Below, piece after piece: positions 12,572 through 64,000 of a stretch of DNA of 64,000 nucleotides. This stretch comes from Lacticaseibacillus rhamnosus. Its GTDB lineage: Bacteria > Bacillota > Bacilli > Lactobacillales > Lactobacillaceae. Positions within the stretch are counted from its first letter, which is position 1, and each line of letters begins with the position of its first letter. Below the pieces are notes generated by a model. That model had not been told where the DNA came from, searched no databases, and saw nothing but the letters and a program-made list of their open reading frames with translations. Where the stretch lies: positions 2,790,001 to 2,854,000 of the forward strand of contig NZ_LR134331.1 of NCBI RefSeq assembly GCF_900636965.1. Direction: 5' to 3'. Made by a program: the position numbers and the translations under genes.

Positions 12572-13606
12572 ATGAACGACAATGTTACTTGGTTTAAACA
12601 CGCTAAATACGGCATGATGATTCACTGGGGATTATATTCGCTGCTGGCAGGTGAATATCGCGGTGAGTCATCGAGTGCCTACGCAGAATGGATTCAGTCC
12701 AAATTTCAAATACCAAATGCCGAATACGGTAAACTTGCCACCGCCTTCAACCCGTTATACTTTGATGCCGATCAGATCGTGGCTCTTGCCAGAAAGTGCG
12801 GCATGCAGTATCTGGTCGTTACCACCAAACACCACGACGGCTTTGCGATGTATCACTCGCAAGTTGACCGCTACAACGTATACGACGCCACCCCGTTCCA
12901 CCGCGATGTGATTGCCGAACTAGCCCAAGCCTGTCATCACGCAGGCCTCAAGTTCGGGCTCTATTATTCTCAAGACCTCGATTGGCACGAACCGGATGGC
13001 GGCGGCTACAAATCAAACGACCTCGAAACAGCCGGCACCACTTGGGACAACAGCTGGGACTTCCCGGACGAAACACAGAAGAATTTTGACCGCTGCTTCA
13101 ATCGAAAAATACTCCCGCAAATCAAAGAAATCATGACCAACTATGGTGACATCGCCACAGCCTGGTTCGATGTCCCGATGACCCTATCCGAAGCCCAAAG
13201 CCAAACCATTTATGATACCGTCCGTGCCTTGCAGCCCAAATGTCTCATCAACTCGCGCTTAGGCAATGGCAAATATGATTTCGTCTCACTCGGCGACAAC
13301 GAAATCCCCAAAGACAAAGCTGCCATGACCCAAACCGATGTCGACTATAACGACATCACCGGCTTCAAACCGTCACCGCTGGGGTTATACGAAACGGCTG
13401 GCACCATCAATGACTCATGGGGCTTTTCTTATCACGACCAGAACTGGAAAACCCCGCGCACACTCTTCCGCTACAAACAACACCTCAACGATTTTGGCAT
13501 TAACTATCTGCTCAATGTCGGGCTTGATCCACTAGGTCGCGTGCCGATGATGGCAGAAGAGAACTTGCTGGCGGCTAAGGCGTTGGAGGATGAAGCTTTA
13601 AACTAA
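12572..13606 (+). CDS. alfC: Alpha-L-fucosidase AlfC (GH29)
   Basis: A 344-residue cytoplasmic GH29 fucosidase with no signal peptide. It is expected to remove alpha-1,6-linked fucose from core-fucosylated GlcNAc(-Asn). Counting from the ATG, the nucleophile Asp is residue 200 (TAWFDVPM) and an Asp is at 242 (SLGDNE). These are the positions reported for the nucleophile and acid/base of L. casei AlfC. Other GH29 features are GMMIHWGLYS and TTKHHDGFAMY. The ribosome site is AGGAGGCG. It ends the rightward alfHC operon at a strong terminator. Confidence 0.95.
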   Translation: MNDNVTWFKHAKYGMMIHWGLYSLLAGEYRGESSSAYAEWIQSKFQIPNAEYGKLATAFNPLYFDADQIVALARKCGMQYLVVTTKHHDGFAMYHSQVDRYNVYDATPFHRDVIAELAQACHHAGLKFGLYYSQDLDWHEPDGGGYKSNDLETAGTTWDNSWDFPDETQKNFDRCFNRKILPQIKEIMTNYGDIATAWFDVPMTLSEAQSQTIYDTVRALQPKCLINSRLGNGKYDFVSLGDNEIPKDKAAMTQTDVDYNDITGFKPSPLGLYETAGTINDSWGFSYHDQNWKTPRTLFRYKQHLNDFGINYLLNVGLDPLGRVPMMAEENLLAAKALEDEALN

Positions 13607-13616
13607 ATACGACCAT

Positions 13617-13664
13617 AAAAAATGGAACGTCTCAGGCTCACAAATAAAGACGTTCCATTTTTAT
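13617..13664 (+). terminator. Intrinsic terminator after alfC
   Basis: AAATGGAACGTCT pairs with AGACGTTCCATTT around a 13-nt loop and is followed by a T-rich tract. It also sits just beyond the end of the convergent acetyltransferase gene, so it may act in both directions. Confidence 0.8.
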
Positions 13665-13671
13665 TTTCGAT

Positions 13672-14172
13672 CTAAGCAAGCTTCTTCACTAAAAACTGAT
13701 CCATCAACTGATGCTGCGCGTTGACAAGTGGGCGCGGTAAATCAGTGAAACCAAACTCATGATAAACATGAACAGCAGTTTTAAGCGTATGGTAAGTTTC
13801 AAGATAAACCGACTGATACCCGACTTGCCGAGCGTAATCCAAGGCATGCTGCAACAGGCGCTTACCAATGCCATGGCCTTGCAAATCACCGTGAACATAG
13901 AACTTTTGCAATTCAGCAACACCGTGAGTCGGGTCATACTCTGCAATGCCAACCCCACCGAGAACGCGACCATTTTGCGTGGCCACAAAGTAATGCCGCT
14001 TTGGCTCTGCCGCATAAAACTGACTTAAGTGATCCAGTCCAGCATCAAAATACACGGTACCCGGGCGGTCAAGATCGGCGGCTTTCAGACACTCCCGAAT
14101 GAGTGCGGCAACTGGTGCATCGTCTGCAGCTGTCATCGGACGAATCACTTCTTCATGAACTGGCGTTGGCAT
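13672..14172 (-). CDS. GNAT-family N-acetyltransferase
   Basis: About 166 residues with the GNAT fold. Acetyl-CoA binding motif A is visible as GDLQGHGIGKRLLQHALDYA and the late Tyr-containing segment as VHVYHEFGFTD. The start at 14172 is chosen because AGGG lies 6 bp upstream; an ATG two codons earlier is possible. The gene stands alone between converging and unrelated genes. The substrate, a small amine or a protein, cannot be told from sequence. Confidence 0.8.
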   Translation of the reverse strand: MPTPVHEEVIRPMTAADDAPVAALIRECLKAADLDRPGTVYFDAGLDHLSQFYAAEPKRHYFVATQNGRVLGGVGIAEYDPTHGVAELQKFYVHGDLQGHGIGKRLLQHALDYARQVGYQSVYLETYHTLKTAVHVYHEFGFTDLPRPLVNAQHQLMDQFLVKKLA

Positions 14173-54568: not shown

Positions 54569-54817
54569 AATAGATGATACCGTGACACTAGGTAACCATA
54601 GTGTGCACTGGAAAAAAGTCTTTGGGCACTTACATAATAAATAACACATGAAATGTATGCGTTTTCATTGCTTTTCCCCAAGAACGTGCTAGAATTAGGA
54701 TTTGCTAAAGAACGAAGCGCATTTAATCCGCACGATGGCGTCAGACAAAGTTTTGTCTGGCGTCCTTCATTTCCGCATATGAAGCGGTTCGTTCGCGGAC
54801 TCAGGAGGAAGATAACC

Positions 54818-55675
54818 ATGAAGCGCAGGACGTTGTTTTCGATCATCGTCGTCACGCTGACCGCAGGATGTTTTACCTTATTCTACGGCATGCATAGTAT
54901 GTGGACTGATACCCAATCAGCCCAAGCCGTTCAAGCTGCCACCGAAGAAGTTGACACATTATTCAAGGATAAGGCACACCAATTACCGGCAGACCAGCTT
55001 AGTCAAGAAAAGATCGAAGCGGTCGCGACCAAGTTACACGCAGCGCGGCAAAAGCTCACGGAACCTGAATACGCCGCCAAACTTGCCAGTGCCCAGGCTG
55101 ATGTCGATGCAGCTAAACATATGCTGACCGTTAAAAAAGCGGTTGCACAAACCACCACTAACTTATCCGATTTAAAGACCTTAACAGACGAATCACACCA
55201 GGCCTTATCCGAACTTGCCACCCAAAAGCCCGAGTTTGTTCAGGCCTATCAAAAACGCGTGGCACAGTTATCCGATCAGGAATCGGCGGTTGCAAAGATT
55301 GCCAGTTTATTTGATGATCCCGACTTCAAGGAGCCAAAAGCCGGTCTTAGTGCTTCCCAAGTGCAAACCGCTTTGGCTGCCCTTGAACATGTGAATAATC
55401 AACAGTTTGCCGACCAAATGCTGCCAATCATCGCCACCGCCCAGCAAGCAGCAACTGATGATCAGACAACGAGTGAAGCCAGTTCATCTGAATCATCAAC
55501 ATCAGGCGAATCAAGTTCCGCATCGCAGACAAGCACAAGTAGCACACCGTCAGCATCCACCAGCAGTCAGGAATCGACATCTTCATCAGCTTCTAATAGT
55601 GAATCTGAACAAAGTCAAAGCGTGCCAAGCAACTCAGCCGCCAGTTCGGCTAGCTCCTCAGGCCAATTGCCATAA
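54818..55675 (+). CDS. Surface protein with coiled-coil ectodomain and Ser-rich tail, paralog A
   Basis: 285 residues from the ATG at 54818 (AGGAGG upstream). An N-terminal membrane helix (LFSIIVVTLTAGCFTLFYGM) is followed by an alpha-helical ectodomain (about 35-215) and a Ser/Thr/Gln-rich C-terminal tail from about 220 that lacks a sorting signal. It is homologous along its first 220 residues to the protein at 59719. The shared blocks are the start MKR, LFYGM or VFYGM, AVQAATE, AAxHMLT, KPEF and VExVxNQxFA-like segments. Function unknown; wall or envelope placement is likely. Confidence 0.7.
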   Translation: MKRRTLFSIIVVTLTAGCFTLFYGMHSMWTDTQSAQAVQAATEEVDTLFKDKAHQLPADQLSQEKIEAVATKLHAARQKLTEPEYAAKLASAQADVDAAKHMLTVKKAVAQTTTNLSDLKTLTDESHQALSELATQKPEFVQAYQKRVAQLSDQESAVAKIASLFDDPDFKEPKAGLSASQVQTALAALEHVNNQQFADQMLPIIATAQQAATDDQTTSEASSSESSTSGESSSASQTSTSSTPSASTSSQESTSSSASNSESEQSQSVPSNSAASSASSSGQLP

Positions 55676-59452: not shown

Positions 59453-59718
59453 GCGATATTTAACTAAAAAGCTTGACAAACTTTTTAAGCTAAAGCGCCA
59501 GACAACAAAATATTGAAAAAATTTTTTTAAATTTAGACAACGTTAATAAAGTCAAGGGCTCGCAAGTTTTGCTTCACCTTACCAAACTTGCATTCAACTA
59601 GTAAACCCCTTATATTACAACTATATTAATGTGTAACAAAAAAGAACCATTTCGTGACCTGTTTGCAATGGTCTTGTTAAGTCCAGCCCGTACCATTAGG
59701 ATATTGGAGGTGGCATCA

Positions 59719-60927
59719 ATGAAGCGAAAACATATTTTCCAAGTCTTGGTCGGCACCTTGATTGCAGGGTACTTGACCGTTTTCTATGGGATGCGGAATA
59801 CGATCGATACCTCATTTACACAACATGCCGTCCAAGCGGCAACGGAACAAACTAACCAACTATACACATCCACGAAACGCGCCTTTCCAGCCAAAAACCT
59901 ATCTAAGAATGCAGTGACATCTACGCAATCCAAGCTTGAGCAATTAGCTCAGAATGTGGATGATCGCGATCAGAAGAAAGTTGTCCTCAAAGATAAACAG
60001 GACGCTGACGCTGCCAGTCATATGCTGACGATTGAAGAAACCGTAAAAACACAAAACGGTAATCTGGCTCAGACTGCTGAAGACGGTTCCCGTGCCAACG
60101 CAGCTTACAAAGCAATCGCGAATACCAAACCTGAATTTGCGGCTGACTACCAACAACAAGTCAATCAGCTTTACAAGAAGTCGCTAGCCATTGCCCAAAT
60201 TCAAAAATTATACCAAGATCAGAATATGCAACATCCAAAGGCAAACCTCAGCAGCGACAGCATTGATCTTGCCGTCAATGCCGTCGAAAATGTTGAGAAT
60301 CAGGATTTTGCCAAAAACGTTCTTCCCCTAGTTCAAGTAGCGAGAAATTCCCAAGAAAGTAACGACTCAAACATTGCGATGGGCCAAAACAGTGCAAGCA
60401 GCCAGAGCAAACAGACGGACCAGCAAACGTCTGCTAGTGGTGTCGAACCAGCTAGTGGCGTAGGAACAACAGCTGCAGCTTCAAGTCAAAAGACGCCATC
60501 TAGCAGCTCCAGCCAAACTCCATCTGAATCAAGCCAGCCGTCCTCAAGTAACCCGGCTGGCAGCAGCACTTCAGCTTCTGATGATCAAGGCCAGTCATCA
60601 TCAACCCCTGCTTCAACGGGTAGCATTGAACCCCTGACAACCGTGCTTAGTGGCGGCCTTTACAAAACTTACGATGATGCTGTCGCCGCTATTAAGGTTC
60701 AAGGCAAATCTGTTGACGACATGACCGTCAAGTCAGTCACCATGAGTGATGGCTCTTACCAGTGGACTTGGGGGCCAAACGGTGATAGCGGCAGTCAAGC
60801 TAGCAGCAGTAGTGCCTCAAGTAGCGGTAGCGATGAAAGTAGCAGTACCGGTACTTCAAGCAGTTCCAGTCGTGCTGCTTCTTCACCAAGTTCCAATGCC
60901 AATCAAGCTTCTAGTCAAGCAAATTAA
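59719..60927 (+). CDS. Surface protein with coiled-coil ectodomain and Ser-rich tail, paralog B
   Basis: 402 residues from the ATG at 59719 (TTGGAGGTGG upstream). An N-terminal membrane helix (FQVLVGTLIAGYLTVFYGM) is followed by a helical domain homologous to the protein at 54818, then long Ser/Thr-rich runs. A small insert absent from paralog A lies at about 303-354 (LYKTYDDAVAAIKVQGKS, then DGSYQWTWGPN). There is no LPxTG-type end. The Ser-rich part could be a glycosylated stalk. Function unknown. Confidence 0.7.
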   Translation: MKRKHIFQVLVGTLIAGYLTVFYGMRNTIDTSFTQHAVQAATEQTNQLYTSTKRAFPAKNLSKNAVTSTQSKLEQLAQNVDDRDQKKVVLKDKQDADAASHMLTIEETVKTQNGNLAQTAEDGSRANAAYKAIANTKPEFAADYQQQVNQLYKKSLAIAQIQKLYQDQNMQHPKANLSSDSIDLAVNAVENVENQDFAKNVLPLVQVARNSQESNDSNIAMGQNSASSQSKQTDQQTSASGVEPASGVGTTAAASSQKTPSSSSSQTPSESSQPSSSNPAGSSTSASDDQGQSSSTPASTGSIEPLTTVLSGGLYKTYDDAVAAIKVQGKSVDDMTVKSVTMSDGSYQWTWGPNGDSGSQASSSSASSSGSDESSSTGTSSSSSRAASSPSSNANQASSQAN

Positions 60928-61150: not shown

Positions 61151-61169
61151 AAGACGAGGAGGTAGTATC

Positions 61170-63242
61170 GTGCCAAGCATTTTCAATGGCGTTCCCTGGT
61201 ATGATCAGCATCAACAAGTCGTTAATGCTTCTGGCGGCTGTTTGATTCAAGAAAATGGTAACTATTATTTATTCGGTGAATATCATCAACCTGATTCAAT
61301 TACCTTTGCCGGATTCTCACGGTACGTGTCAACCGACTTAGAACATTGGAAAGATACCGGTCTCGCACTTTCTCCTCAGCCGTCTGGTCTTTTAGGTCCG
61401 CATCGAATTGGTGACCGTGTCAAAGTGATTCAAGCCAAAACCGGGCAGTATATCATGCTGATGCACACCGATGATGAACGTACATTTGATCCGGTTGTGG
61501 CGTATGCTACAGCCGATCATTTAACCGATACGTTTGAGTTTCAAGGCCCGCTACGTTATGAGAACCAAACAATCCGCATGTGGCATATCGGTAGTTTTAC
61601 AGACGATGATGGTACTAATTATCTGTTAACGCATGAAGGTGACATCTATCGCCTAGCTGCTGATGGAAAAACAGCTGAAGCTAAAGTCATTAGTAATATT
61701 GCTCCTGGCACCGAGGCTCCTGCAATGTTTCACTTCAACGATCATTATTTCTTTCTGGCATCACAAAAAACCAGCTGGGATCATAACGATAATATTTATT
61801 TTACCGCTGACCGTTTAAACGGGCCTTGGACACCACACGGCCCATTTTGCCCATCAGGAACATTGACTTACAACTCGCAAACCGCTTTTGTCACACTCAT
61901 CACGACTGCAAAGGGAACGGTTCCTTTATATTTAGGTGATCGCCACACTTACCCTTACCTGAACAACAGCACCCATGTCTGGTTACCATTAACGGTCAAC
62001 GGTACTGAGTTATCAATTCCTCATTATTGGCCAAGATGGGATTGGTATGAACAAGATGCCCAACCGATGACTTTTAATTCCTTGGCATGGACTGGCCAGA
62101 CAAGTGATGCTAGCGTAACCCTTTCTTTTTATGGCACCAATATTACGATCACCGGACAGACCAGTCCCCAAGGCGGTTTTGCTAAAATGACGCTTCGTGA
62201 TAAAGAAGGGCATATCAGATCTCAAGTTTATACAGACTTTTACAGTATCCTGACCGAGGAGACGGTCTGTTTCCGTTCACCCACTGAGCAACCCGACCAT
62301 TATCAACTATTGATTGAAGCAATGGGCATTCACGGTGACTGGTATGATAAGTCGCGTCGACGCTATGGGAGTGACGGTAATCATGTAACGATCAGCGGTT
62401 ACAGTATTGATAACCCCACTGATAAAGATACTAAAGCCGCTGTGACCTACCACGCTAGTAAACAGGCATTTATGATTCATAAAATGGGCCATCACTGGAC
62501 GCAATCAGCAGTGGCAAGACCTGAAGGCAGTGCTTATTACCAATGGCTGCAAAGTGACATTGGCGAAGGGGAGCTGACCATTGGCGACCAACAAATTCAT
62601 TTGCGACCGGGTCAAGGCATCCTCATTAATCTTCACACTAGTTACGCTTATCACCCGGTTACATCCCTTTGGCAGACCAGTTATCTTAGTTTTGGCGGTA
62701 CGATCATTGACGCAATGATCCCGGGTATTCACACTTCAAATTCAATCTTCTTTCCAGTCCTTGGCTCAGAAGTGTTGGGTTTTATCCATACCCAAATGCG
62801 CCATCGTCATGAACATCATTACCAAGACGAACATGCCTCATCTATCATCCAAGATTTCTTAACCAAGCTAAAACCTTATACCGCACGTTTAAAGGCTGAT
62901 CCTACCAAGCAAAAACTAGCTGAACAGACTCTAACTTTATTACAGCAGCATTTTGAAGAAGACCTAACCAATGACCAGCTTGCGGAAATGACAAATTATA
63001 GTGTGCAATATATGTTGCAAACTTTTCATGAGTTATATCAAACAACACCGCGGCGTCTTCTAACGATCTATCGGATTATTAAGGCAAAACAATTGCTGAT
63101 CGAACAACCTGATCTACCATTATTGCAAGTCGCTTTACAAGCAGGATTTAACTCCGAAACTTATATGATTCGTGCATTTAAACGCCAGGAAAACTTGACA
63201 CCAGGGCAATTTCGCACAGTTGTCCATCAATTACGTTCGTGA
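61170..63242 (+). CDS. GH43-like glycosidase fused to an AraC-family regulator
   Basis: A 690-residue cytoplasmic protein without signal peptide, starting at a GTG with GAGGAGG upstream. Residues 1-290 match the five-bladed GH43 fold of the exo-galactanase-like branch: ASGGCLIQENGNYYLFGEY, STDLEHWKDTGL, SFTDDDGTNYLL, TEAPAMFHFNDHYFF and YNSQTAF. Residues about 300-420 form a beta-rich, sugar-binding-like module. Residues about 430-540 resemble an AraC-type cupin sensor. Residues about 590-690 hold two AraC HTHs (LAEMTNYSVQYMLQTFHELY; VALQAGFNSETYMIRAFKRQ; LTPGQFR). The glycosidase part may act as enzyme or as sugar sensor. No adjacent target operon is visible to the left; the GPH-type transporter gene to the right is a candidate. 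Confidence 0.82.
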   Translation: MPSIFNGVPWYDQHQQVVNASGGCLIQENGNYYLFGEYHQPDSITFAGFSRYVSTDLEHWKDTGLALSPQPSGLLGPHRIGDRVKVIQAKTGQYIMLMHTDDERTFDPVVAYATADHLTDTFEFQGPLRYENQTIRMWHIGSFTDDDGTNYLLTHEGDIYRLAADGKTAEAKVISNIAPGTEAPAMFHFNDHYFFLASQKTSWDHNDNIYFTADRLNGPWTPHGPFCPSGTLTYNSQTAFVTLITTAKGTVPLYLGDRHTYPYLNNSTHVWLPLTVNGTELSIPHYWPRWDWYEQDAQPMTFNSLAWTGQTSDASVTLSFYGTNITITGQTSPQGGFAKMTLRDKEGHIRSQVYTDFYSILTEETVCFRSPTEQPDHYQLLIEAMGIHGDWYDKSRRRYGSDGNHVTISGYSIDNPTDKDTKAAVTYHASKQAFMIHKMGHHWTQSAVARPEGSAYYQWLQSDIGEGELTIGDQQIHLRPGQGILINLHTSYAYHPVTSLWQTSYLSFGGTIIDAMIPGIHTSNSIFFPVLGSEVLGFIHTQMRHRHEHHYQDEHASSIIQDFLTKLKPYTARLKADPTKQKLAEQTLTLLQQHFEEDLTNDQLAEMTNYSVQYMLQTFHELYQTTPRRLLTIYRIIKAKQLLIEQPDLPLLQVALQAGFNSETYMIRAFKRQENLTPGQFRTVVHQLRS

Positions 63243-63583: not shown

Positions 63584-64000
63584 TTATTTAGTTGACGTGT
63601 CAGCAGGTGTGCTAGTCTTCTGATCGTTTCTGCGCCAGAATTCAATTGAATCGTATGGTACCCCTGTCAATTGTTCACAAACGCGTTTGGTATCAGGCTT
63701 AACGTCCTTCATGCTGCCGCCTTTTTGTAAACGGGTTAACTCAGCGGCTAAGACATTAAAGGTCTTCTTACTGAGGTGGAACCGGCTCGCAAAGAACATC
63801 GCGATCAGGATCATAATGCCCACGCCGCCAGAAACGATAAACAGAATCATATTTGTGGCACTTGCAGGCTGGCTAACCGCACCGCTTGTGGACTGGCGGA
63901 AACCGGAAACATCAAGCAGGTATCCAGCAACAACTGAGGCCAGGCCTTGACTGATCTGGTTGATGAAGACCATGACTGACGCAAACAAGCCAGCACGGTT
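63584..64000 (-). CDS. GPH-family sugar:cation symporter, C-terminal part (truncated by window edge)
   Basis: The last 138 codons are in the window. They contain membrane helices (FASVMVFINQISQGLASVVAGYLLDVSGF; a second one near MILFIVSGGVGIMILIAMFFASRF) and a hydrophilic C-terminal tail. The start, NRAGLFASVMVFINQ, matches the late helices of glycoside-pentoside-hexuronide symporters. No EIIA-like regulatory tail is present. It is convergent with the GH43-AraC gene and may be in the same sugar pathway. Confidence 0.75.
   Translation of the reverse strand, partial: NRAGLFASVMVFINQISQGLASVVAGYLLDVSGFRQSTSGAVSQPASATNMILFIVSGGVGIMILIAMFFASRFHLSKKTFNVLAAELTRLQKGGSMKDVKPDTKRVCEQLTGVPYDSIEFWRRNDQKTSTPADTSTK

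Follow-up and report, generated by a model that had tools for sequence, protein, structure and literature searches.

Proteins in which an enzyme and a DNA-binding domain share one chain include the PutA-type trigger enzymes. PutA itself is a working redox enzyme as well as a repressor, whereas in the protein described here, likewise a single chain, catalysis is doubtful and activation is what we propose. AraC-GH39 fusions are reportedly known as well, and our literature search found no published description of a GH43-AraC fusion. The nearest precedent that we found for a glycosidase fold employed as the sensor of a regulator, which is the role proposed below, is RsgI6 of Clostridium thermocellum, an anti-sigma factor whose GH10 domain is described as having very low activity while still binding its polysaccharide (PMC4711584). 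RsgI6, however, is a membrane anti-sigma factor that senses outside the cell, with another fold and another signalling route. On the enzyme side, the relevant proteins are the exo-beta-1,3-galactanases of the GH43_24 group, such as Pc1,3Gal43A, BT3683 and Ct1,3Gal43A. The account of these enzymes in PMC7939473 presents them as a group without the usual Asp base, with Gln in its stead, treats Asp158 of Pc1,3Gal43A as the presumed pKa modulator, attributes the recognition of galactose (O4 and O6) to Tyr126 and Glu102, and reports eight subsite -1 residues conserved across the three GH43_24 enzymes compared there.

The window that we analysed, a stretch of 64,000 nucleotides from Lacticaseibacillus rhamnosus (assembly GCF_900636965.1, contig NZ_LR134331.1, positions 2,790,001 to 2,854,000 of the forward strand), contains a gene in which the two kinds of protein are merged (Table 1). 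A first-pass annotation, made from the letters alone, had proposed that a GH43 propeller, a beta-rich module, a cupin and two helix-turn-helix motifs belong to one polypeptide lacking a signal peptide, and the single polypeptide is borne out. The open reading frame runs from a GTG start codon at 61170 to a stop codon at 63240-63242, and the Pfam matches all exceed their cut-offs: GH43 (PF04616) at residues 28-259 (38.6 bits against 32.2), AraC_binding, that is, the cupin, at residues 451-526 (27.5 against 21.1) and HTH_18 at residues 604-682 (71.1 against 33.6), together with two HTH_AraC stretches. Inspection by eye reveals no signal peptide in the N-terminus, MPSIFNGVPWYDQ.

Table 1. Features of the fusion gene and its surroundings. 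Positions refer to the window except where the prefix L034 is given; the limits of the propeller, beta module, cupin and helix-turn-helix region were set by hand and are approximate.
Feature	Position	Strand	Remarks
GAGGAGG ribosome-binding box	61156..61162	+	5' of the GTG start; read in the sequence
GH43-AraC fusion gene	61170..63242	+	690 aa, single open reading frame
GH43 five-bladed propeller	61170..62039	+	residues ~1-290
Codon CAT, His139	61584..61586	+	column of the pKa-modulating Asp (D158 of Pc1,3Gal43A)
Codon GAG, Glu182	61713..61715	+	column of the catalytic acid (E208 of Pc1,3Gal43A), conserved
Codon CAA, Gln237	61878..61880	+	column of the imidic-acid base (Q263 of Pc1,3Gal43A), conserved
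Beta module	62040..62414	+	residues ~291-415; common to BT_2959 (3nqh)
AraC-type cupin	62466..62759	+	residues ~433-530
AraC-type DNA-binding domain	62901..63239	+	residues ~578-690; two helix-turn-helix motifs
MFS_2 transporter gene, 3' part	63584..64000	-	convergent with the fusion; continues beyond the window
GH115 gene	L034:5271-7322		upstream of the MFS_2 gene, outside the window
Predicted operator	L034:7463-7504		upstream of the MFS_2 gene, outside the window

Among solved chains, the phmmer match ranked first is BT_2959 of Bacteroides thetaiotaomicron (3nqh), over fusion residues 4-409 (E 2e-113), followed by exo-beta-1,3-galactanases, for example, 5flw and 7bys, and then by AraC-type DNA-binding domains. 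An AlphaFold2 model of the fusion, computed from 42 aligned, hand-picked proteins of the window and the loci, has a mean pLDDT of 88.0 and a pTM of 0.66, and a VIA-align 2 fold search spanning residues 1-394 again places 3nqh nearest (Z 51.2, rmsd 1.8, 414 residues), with 7byv at Z 38.5 over 383 residues. Given that the match to 3nqh extends over 414 residues, the beta-rich module is part of the BT_2959 architecture, in which propeller and module are combined in the same way, and the kinship to GH43_24 galactanases that had been suggested for the protein is right at the levels of both fold and sequence. The solved chain of BT_2959 (439 residues) nevertheless lacks the AraC half and carries Asp (WDMG) at the position of the His (WHIG) of the fusion; in Pc1,3Gal43A, a CBM35 is found at the place of the beta module. 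Our literature search turned up no paper on BT_2959. We also considered an internal start that would yield a separate AraC protein. In the window gene, in-frame ATG codons occur at residues 435 and 439 and GTG codons at residues 425 and 448; this candidate was set aside, as no clear ribosome-binding box was seen by eye and neither Met is invariant among the five copies of the gene.

The first-pass annotation had pointed to ASGG near the N-terminus, in place of a typical Asp motif, as a reason to test for activity. ASGG is no sign of an unusual enzyme, because the GH43_24 group is described as doing without that Asp (PMC7939473) and the Gln base is present. Indeed, Glu208, Gln263, Glu57, Arg103 and Trp229 of Pc1,3Gal43A all have equivalents in the fusion (in the window protein, Glu182, Gln237, Glu37, Arg83 and Trp203), whereas the window protein departs from that enzyme at three subsite residues, with His139 in the column of Asp158, Thr105 in that of Tyr126 and Asp82 in that of Glu102. 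We followed these columns through an alignment of 81 rows, 63 of them distinct (6 fusions and 57 others), in which labelling the fusions by the string WHIG is circular, their identity resting on separate evidence for both halves: the six WHIG rows are five open reading frames that match both halves and a truncated copy from L. chiayiensis. In the Asp column, His is present in 6/6 fusions and Asp in three close stand-alone relatives, and the 57 non-fusion rows comprise 45 Asp, 2 Arg, 1 Ser and 9 gaps. Of the gaps, three (L082, L083 and L091) are Asp motifs shifted by the alignment and six belong to rows that are partial pieces; the Ser, in 7bys, is an alignment slip, its Asp158 being known from PMC7939473; the two Arg rows (L086 and L087), which are distant two-piece matches, may be true exceptions. 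The flanks of this column, RMWHIG versus KxWDMG, are otherwise alike, and the column is therefore secure for the close relatives. The column of residue 105 holds Thr or Ser in five of the six fusions, the exception being the truncated L. chiayiensis copy, which has Tyr; Tyr is also kept in the three close stand-alone relatives, and the 57 non-fusion rows have 49 Tyr, 6 gaps, 1 Asp and 1 Pro. The Glu102 column retains Glu in 3/6 fusions. The catalytic acid is Glu in 6/6 fusions, the base is Gln in all five that cover its column, and Trp203, Glu37 and Arg83 are likewise unchanged wherever a fusion extends over their columns. Judged from these columns, the true anomaly of the fusion is the replacement of the pKa-modulating Asp by His, not a missing N-terminal Asp.

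Full-length open copies of the fusion, the window's included, were found in 5 of the 397 genomes searched in the family, across three genera of Lactobacillaceae; these five represent approximately three lineages with one origin, so that counts over them are not independent. Identity to the window protein is 78% in L. zeae (G277), 69% in G081, 68% in G108 and 49% in G002. The sixth copy, from L. chiayiensis (G107), is truncated and matches over residues 1-225 only; at this locus (L039:9354-10664), the transporter and GH115 genes that adjoin the fusion elsewhere are gone and a P-type ATPase lies directly next to it, as if the remainder of the fusion and the transporter-GH115 pair had been lost by one deletion. 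The first-pass annotation had allowed that a sequencing frameshift might have joined two genes, or that the halves might always be separate in homologs. The five intact full-length copies exclude such a frameshift, and the halves are fused in all five, though each half also has separate relatives. Close stand-alone GH43 proteins (420-429 aa, 47-49% identity) are encoded in G081, G108 and G109, more distant ones are also present, and the 397 family genomes contain many stand-alone AraC proteins of approximately 270 aa, the best of them at approximately 30-35% identity to the fusion. Among the distinct GH43 open reading frames in fetched loci, only the fusions also match the AraC half at E 1e-8; this check took in the matches with a fetched locus, and some loci cut the gene.

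Further afield, a phylum search by full-length alignment (threshold 1e-30, at most three candidates scored per genome) matched 6 of 368 genomes, with full length attained only in the window's own. A class search of 398 genomes, a sample that overlaps that of the phylum, used the GH43 half alone as the query and returned partial GH43 matches beyond the window genome; among plasmid records, 19 match one half and none covers 80% of the fusion protein. Two genomes harbor both forms of the GH43 domain: G081 encodes the fusion with His (L036:8819-10891) and a stand-alone GH43 with intact Asp (L041:9317-10606), and so does G108 (L037:4982-7054 and L042:9635-10924, respectively). These are natural pairs for a direct comparison of His with the intact Asp.

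The two halves appear to have distinct histories. In a tree of 27 hand-picked AraC rows, from which near-duplicates and some rows with stops were left out, the AraC halves of the fusions form one clade (100/100) that is joined (99/95) with seven stand-alone regulators, and a GH42 beta-galactosidase gene, confirmed with Pfam in each case, lies near five of these seven. Like the fusion, these sister regulators of Lactobacillaceae combine a cupin with two helix-turn-helix motifs, but they have no GH43 domain and, to judge by their neighbours, would control other sugar loci. A simple fusion of neighbouring GH43 and AraC genes of uronate loci is not supported, as the AraC half groups with these regulators and not with the AraC proteins encoded beside stand-alone GH43 genes. 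We infer a single event, in which a regulator half of a lineage that is frequently located next to beta-galactosidases was combined with an enzyme half of BT_2959-like descent.

Selection seems to have weighed most heavily on the propeller, which, between the window and G002, is the most conserved region of the fusion (184/290 identical residues, compared to 43/125 in the beta module, 41/98 in the cupin and 60/113 in the helix-turn-helix region). Compared with L. zeae, the regions of the window gene have dN values of 0.10-0.22; dS exceeds 2 or could not be calculated. Comparison with 19 stand-alone AraC rows, restricted to columns conserved in at least 85% of these, reveals columns in which all fusions differ on the cupin side (5/25, one of the five being an end gap), in the middle (1/4) and on the HTH side (3/17); with the differences so spread, the cupin has changed but is not singled out. 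A pocket under the strongest constraint that has lost one catalytic helper would be the pattern of an enzyme-derived receptor, and a changed enzyme is also compatible with it.

Genes for an MFS-type transporter (529-543 aa) and a GH115 alpha-glucuronidase (683-699 aa) adjoin 5/5 intact fusions, with the GH115 of G002 split across two overlapping frames; the pair is convergent with the fusion in four genomes and co-directional in G002. Pfam (MFS_2, Glyco_hydro_115) was applied to the pair of the window genome, and the other pairs were recognised by phmmer. Of the 397 genomes searched in the family, 22 encode a GH115, namely, the five that have an intact fusion and 17 others in which no fusion was detected, so that the fusion is not needed for GH115 use; G107 is not one of the 22. 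Around 20 other GH115 regions, phmmer detects a transporter homologue in 17, an AraC-like gene in 7 and a UxaC- or UxuB-like gene in 7. Genes for MFS_2, UxaC and a separate AraC protein accompany the close stand-alone GH43 genes (by Pfam in G109 and by phmmer in G081), and UxaC was found in all seven genomes tested, the window's included. Taken together, the neighbours and UxaC make uronate and glucuronide use the setting of this locus. The solved GH115 nearest to the enzyme is BtGH115A, by the small margin of 69.1 bits versus 62.6 for a xylan enzyme; in PMC9063842, BtGH115A is singled out among the characterised members as the sole one that acts on arabinogalactan, and a puzzle over the linkage is noted. 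This closeness hints weakly at arabinogalactan as the GH115 substrate. For one Lactobacillus rhamnosus strain, the count given in PMC11241047 is one GH115 and one GH43.

Several other features of these regions merit mention. In L. zeae, a GDSL-like esterase gene (L035:9099-9899; Pfam Lipase_GDSL_2), the product of which is perhaps a deacetylase for the same sugar, lies between the fusion and the transporter; at that spot, none was seen in the other four intact fusion loci. G083 (L096 / L127) encodes a longer GH115 (open frame of 957 aa), for which the Pfam model gives 392 bits, compared to 172-206 for the other 25 listed, so that the 683-aa GH115 group looks like a divergent branch. Small, mutually similar proteins (for example, L040:8613-8999, 12919-13311 and 13362-13733) recur near the GH115 and transporter genes in many GH115 regions; the two of these three that were scanned have no Pfam match, and they are possibly uronate helpers of a new kind. 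Within the window, the products of 54653-55675 and 59629-60927 have serine-rich tails and, by eye, a similar stretch near the N-terminus; the latter protein has no Pfam match, and in L. zeae and L. chiayiensis a homologue of it lies ahead of the fusion.

A block upstream of GH115 is common to the five genomes with an intact fusion and remains alike even where the fusion proteins are only 49% identical. It is a direct repeat with a 21-bp period, the two copies of which are identical at 14, 14, 13, 13 and 14 of 21 positions in the five genomes, a match attained by 10, 9, 84, 104 and 12 of 100,000 shuffles, respectively. At the same offset in 5/5 genomes, the second copy overlaps TTGGAA, a -35 box, which is followed after 17 bp by TACAAT, TATAAT or TATCAT; a promoter scan of the window genome gives the same pair, but such sites number 2 compared to 1.5 in shuffles. 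A half-site on the -35 box is a common arrangement for AraC-type activators, and a direct-repeat operator next to the -35 is a feature of the family. The half-site profile scores 54 to 58 at the five sites and at most 16.7 elsewhere in 997,488 bases of loci, some of them overlapping. Allowing up to three mismatches, the repeat pattern occurs once in each of the five fusion genomes and in none of 17 others, namely, 16 of the 17 other GH115 genomes (G083 was left out) and G107, and the pattern read backwards, as a control, gave 0 matches; the pattern was built from the five sites, so that its five hits arise by construction, and it is the uniqueness and the absence elsewhere that inform. Alignment of the region upstream of the fusion gene revealed no operator there, and each genome has just the single site; nothing indicates that the repeat also controls the fusion gene. 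At L034:7440-7475, partly on the operator and partly after it, there is a stretch that resembles catabolite-control (cre) sites, with approximately two mismatches to their consensus.

We put at roughly 0.6 the probability that the fusion is a cytoplasmic AraC-family activator of the GH115-transporter operon, with a GH43 galactanase-like domain added to the sensing side of the activator. In this scenario, an oligosaccharide bearing glucuronic acid, for example, one derived from plant arabinogalactan, would enter the cell via the MFS_2 transporter, and either it or a breakdown product would bind in the GH43 pocket, as altered in the fusion, and perhaps in the cupin as well. The AraC domains would then occupy the conserved 21-bp direct repeat, the downstream half on the -35 box, and help RNA polymerase, such that the output of the adjoining transporter and alpha-glucuronidase genes would rise. 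With Asp changed to His, the GH43 domain would function mainly as a sensor, with little or no hydrolysis, and the added sensor is probably a retooled galactanase fold, weakly active or inactive.

The first-pass annotation had left a choice between an enzyme that reports on its own substrate and a sugar sensor made from a glycosidase fold. The evidence tends towards the sensor, because His is present in 6/6 fusions, the propeller is the best conserved region and an AraC-like predicted operator is found at the neighbouring operon; the part of the choice that survives on the enzymatic side is that catalysis would be possible with the acid and the Gln base intact, which a pure sensor would not need. 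Also at odds with the sensor reading are the Tyr105 kept by the truncated L. chiayiensis copy and the presence of the cupin, which could be the sole sensor. A more specific version, tentative and in our estimate rather improbable as it stands, envisages a pseudo-glycosidase receptor in which subsite -1 has been rebuilt from galactose to a uronic-acid-capped galactoside: without the negative Asp (replaced by His) and the Tyr in contact with O6 and O4, the pocket would accommodate a carboxylate, and it would set the specificity of an AraC activator that serves a glucuronide operon.

Considerably less probable than the activator with an added sensor is a trigger enzyme, in which the GH43 half still hydrolyses the imported oligosaccharide and signals to the AraC half through its occupancy or its product. 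The five retained subsite residues, the strong conservation of the propeller and the stand-alone relatives that sit as probable enzymes in uronate loci would all accord with it; they have to be set against the His at the pKa modulator and the Thr or Ser at position 105, two changes that the three close stand-alone relatives have not undergone, and against the consideration that regulators are usually present in too few copies to act as catabolic enzymes. Less plausible still would be a plain AraC regulator that senses the sugar through its cupin only, with the GH43 domain as a passive passenger or an oligomerisation module. The cupin does exceed its Pfam cut-off, and the stand-alone sister regulators manage with a cupin only, but the supposed passenger is the most conserved part of the protein, with nearly two-thirds of its residues identical between the window and G002, and the changes in the cupin do not single it out. 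That the gene is an artefact or in decay, two joined genes with no joint function, is very improbable, for the truncated L. chiayiensis copy, with its neighbouring pair gone, stands alone against five intact copies in three genera with a single AraC-half clade and the low dN relative to dS in the comparison with L. zeae.

If the sensor reading is correct, the fusion would be a cytoplasmic one-component regulator that has borrowed a whole glycosidase as its receptor, complete with a predicted operator and a target operon, and the step from enzyme to sensor would become testable via one residue, His139. For lactobacilli, it would amount to a sugar-specific switch for the use of arabinogalactan or glucuronides.
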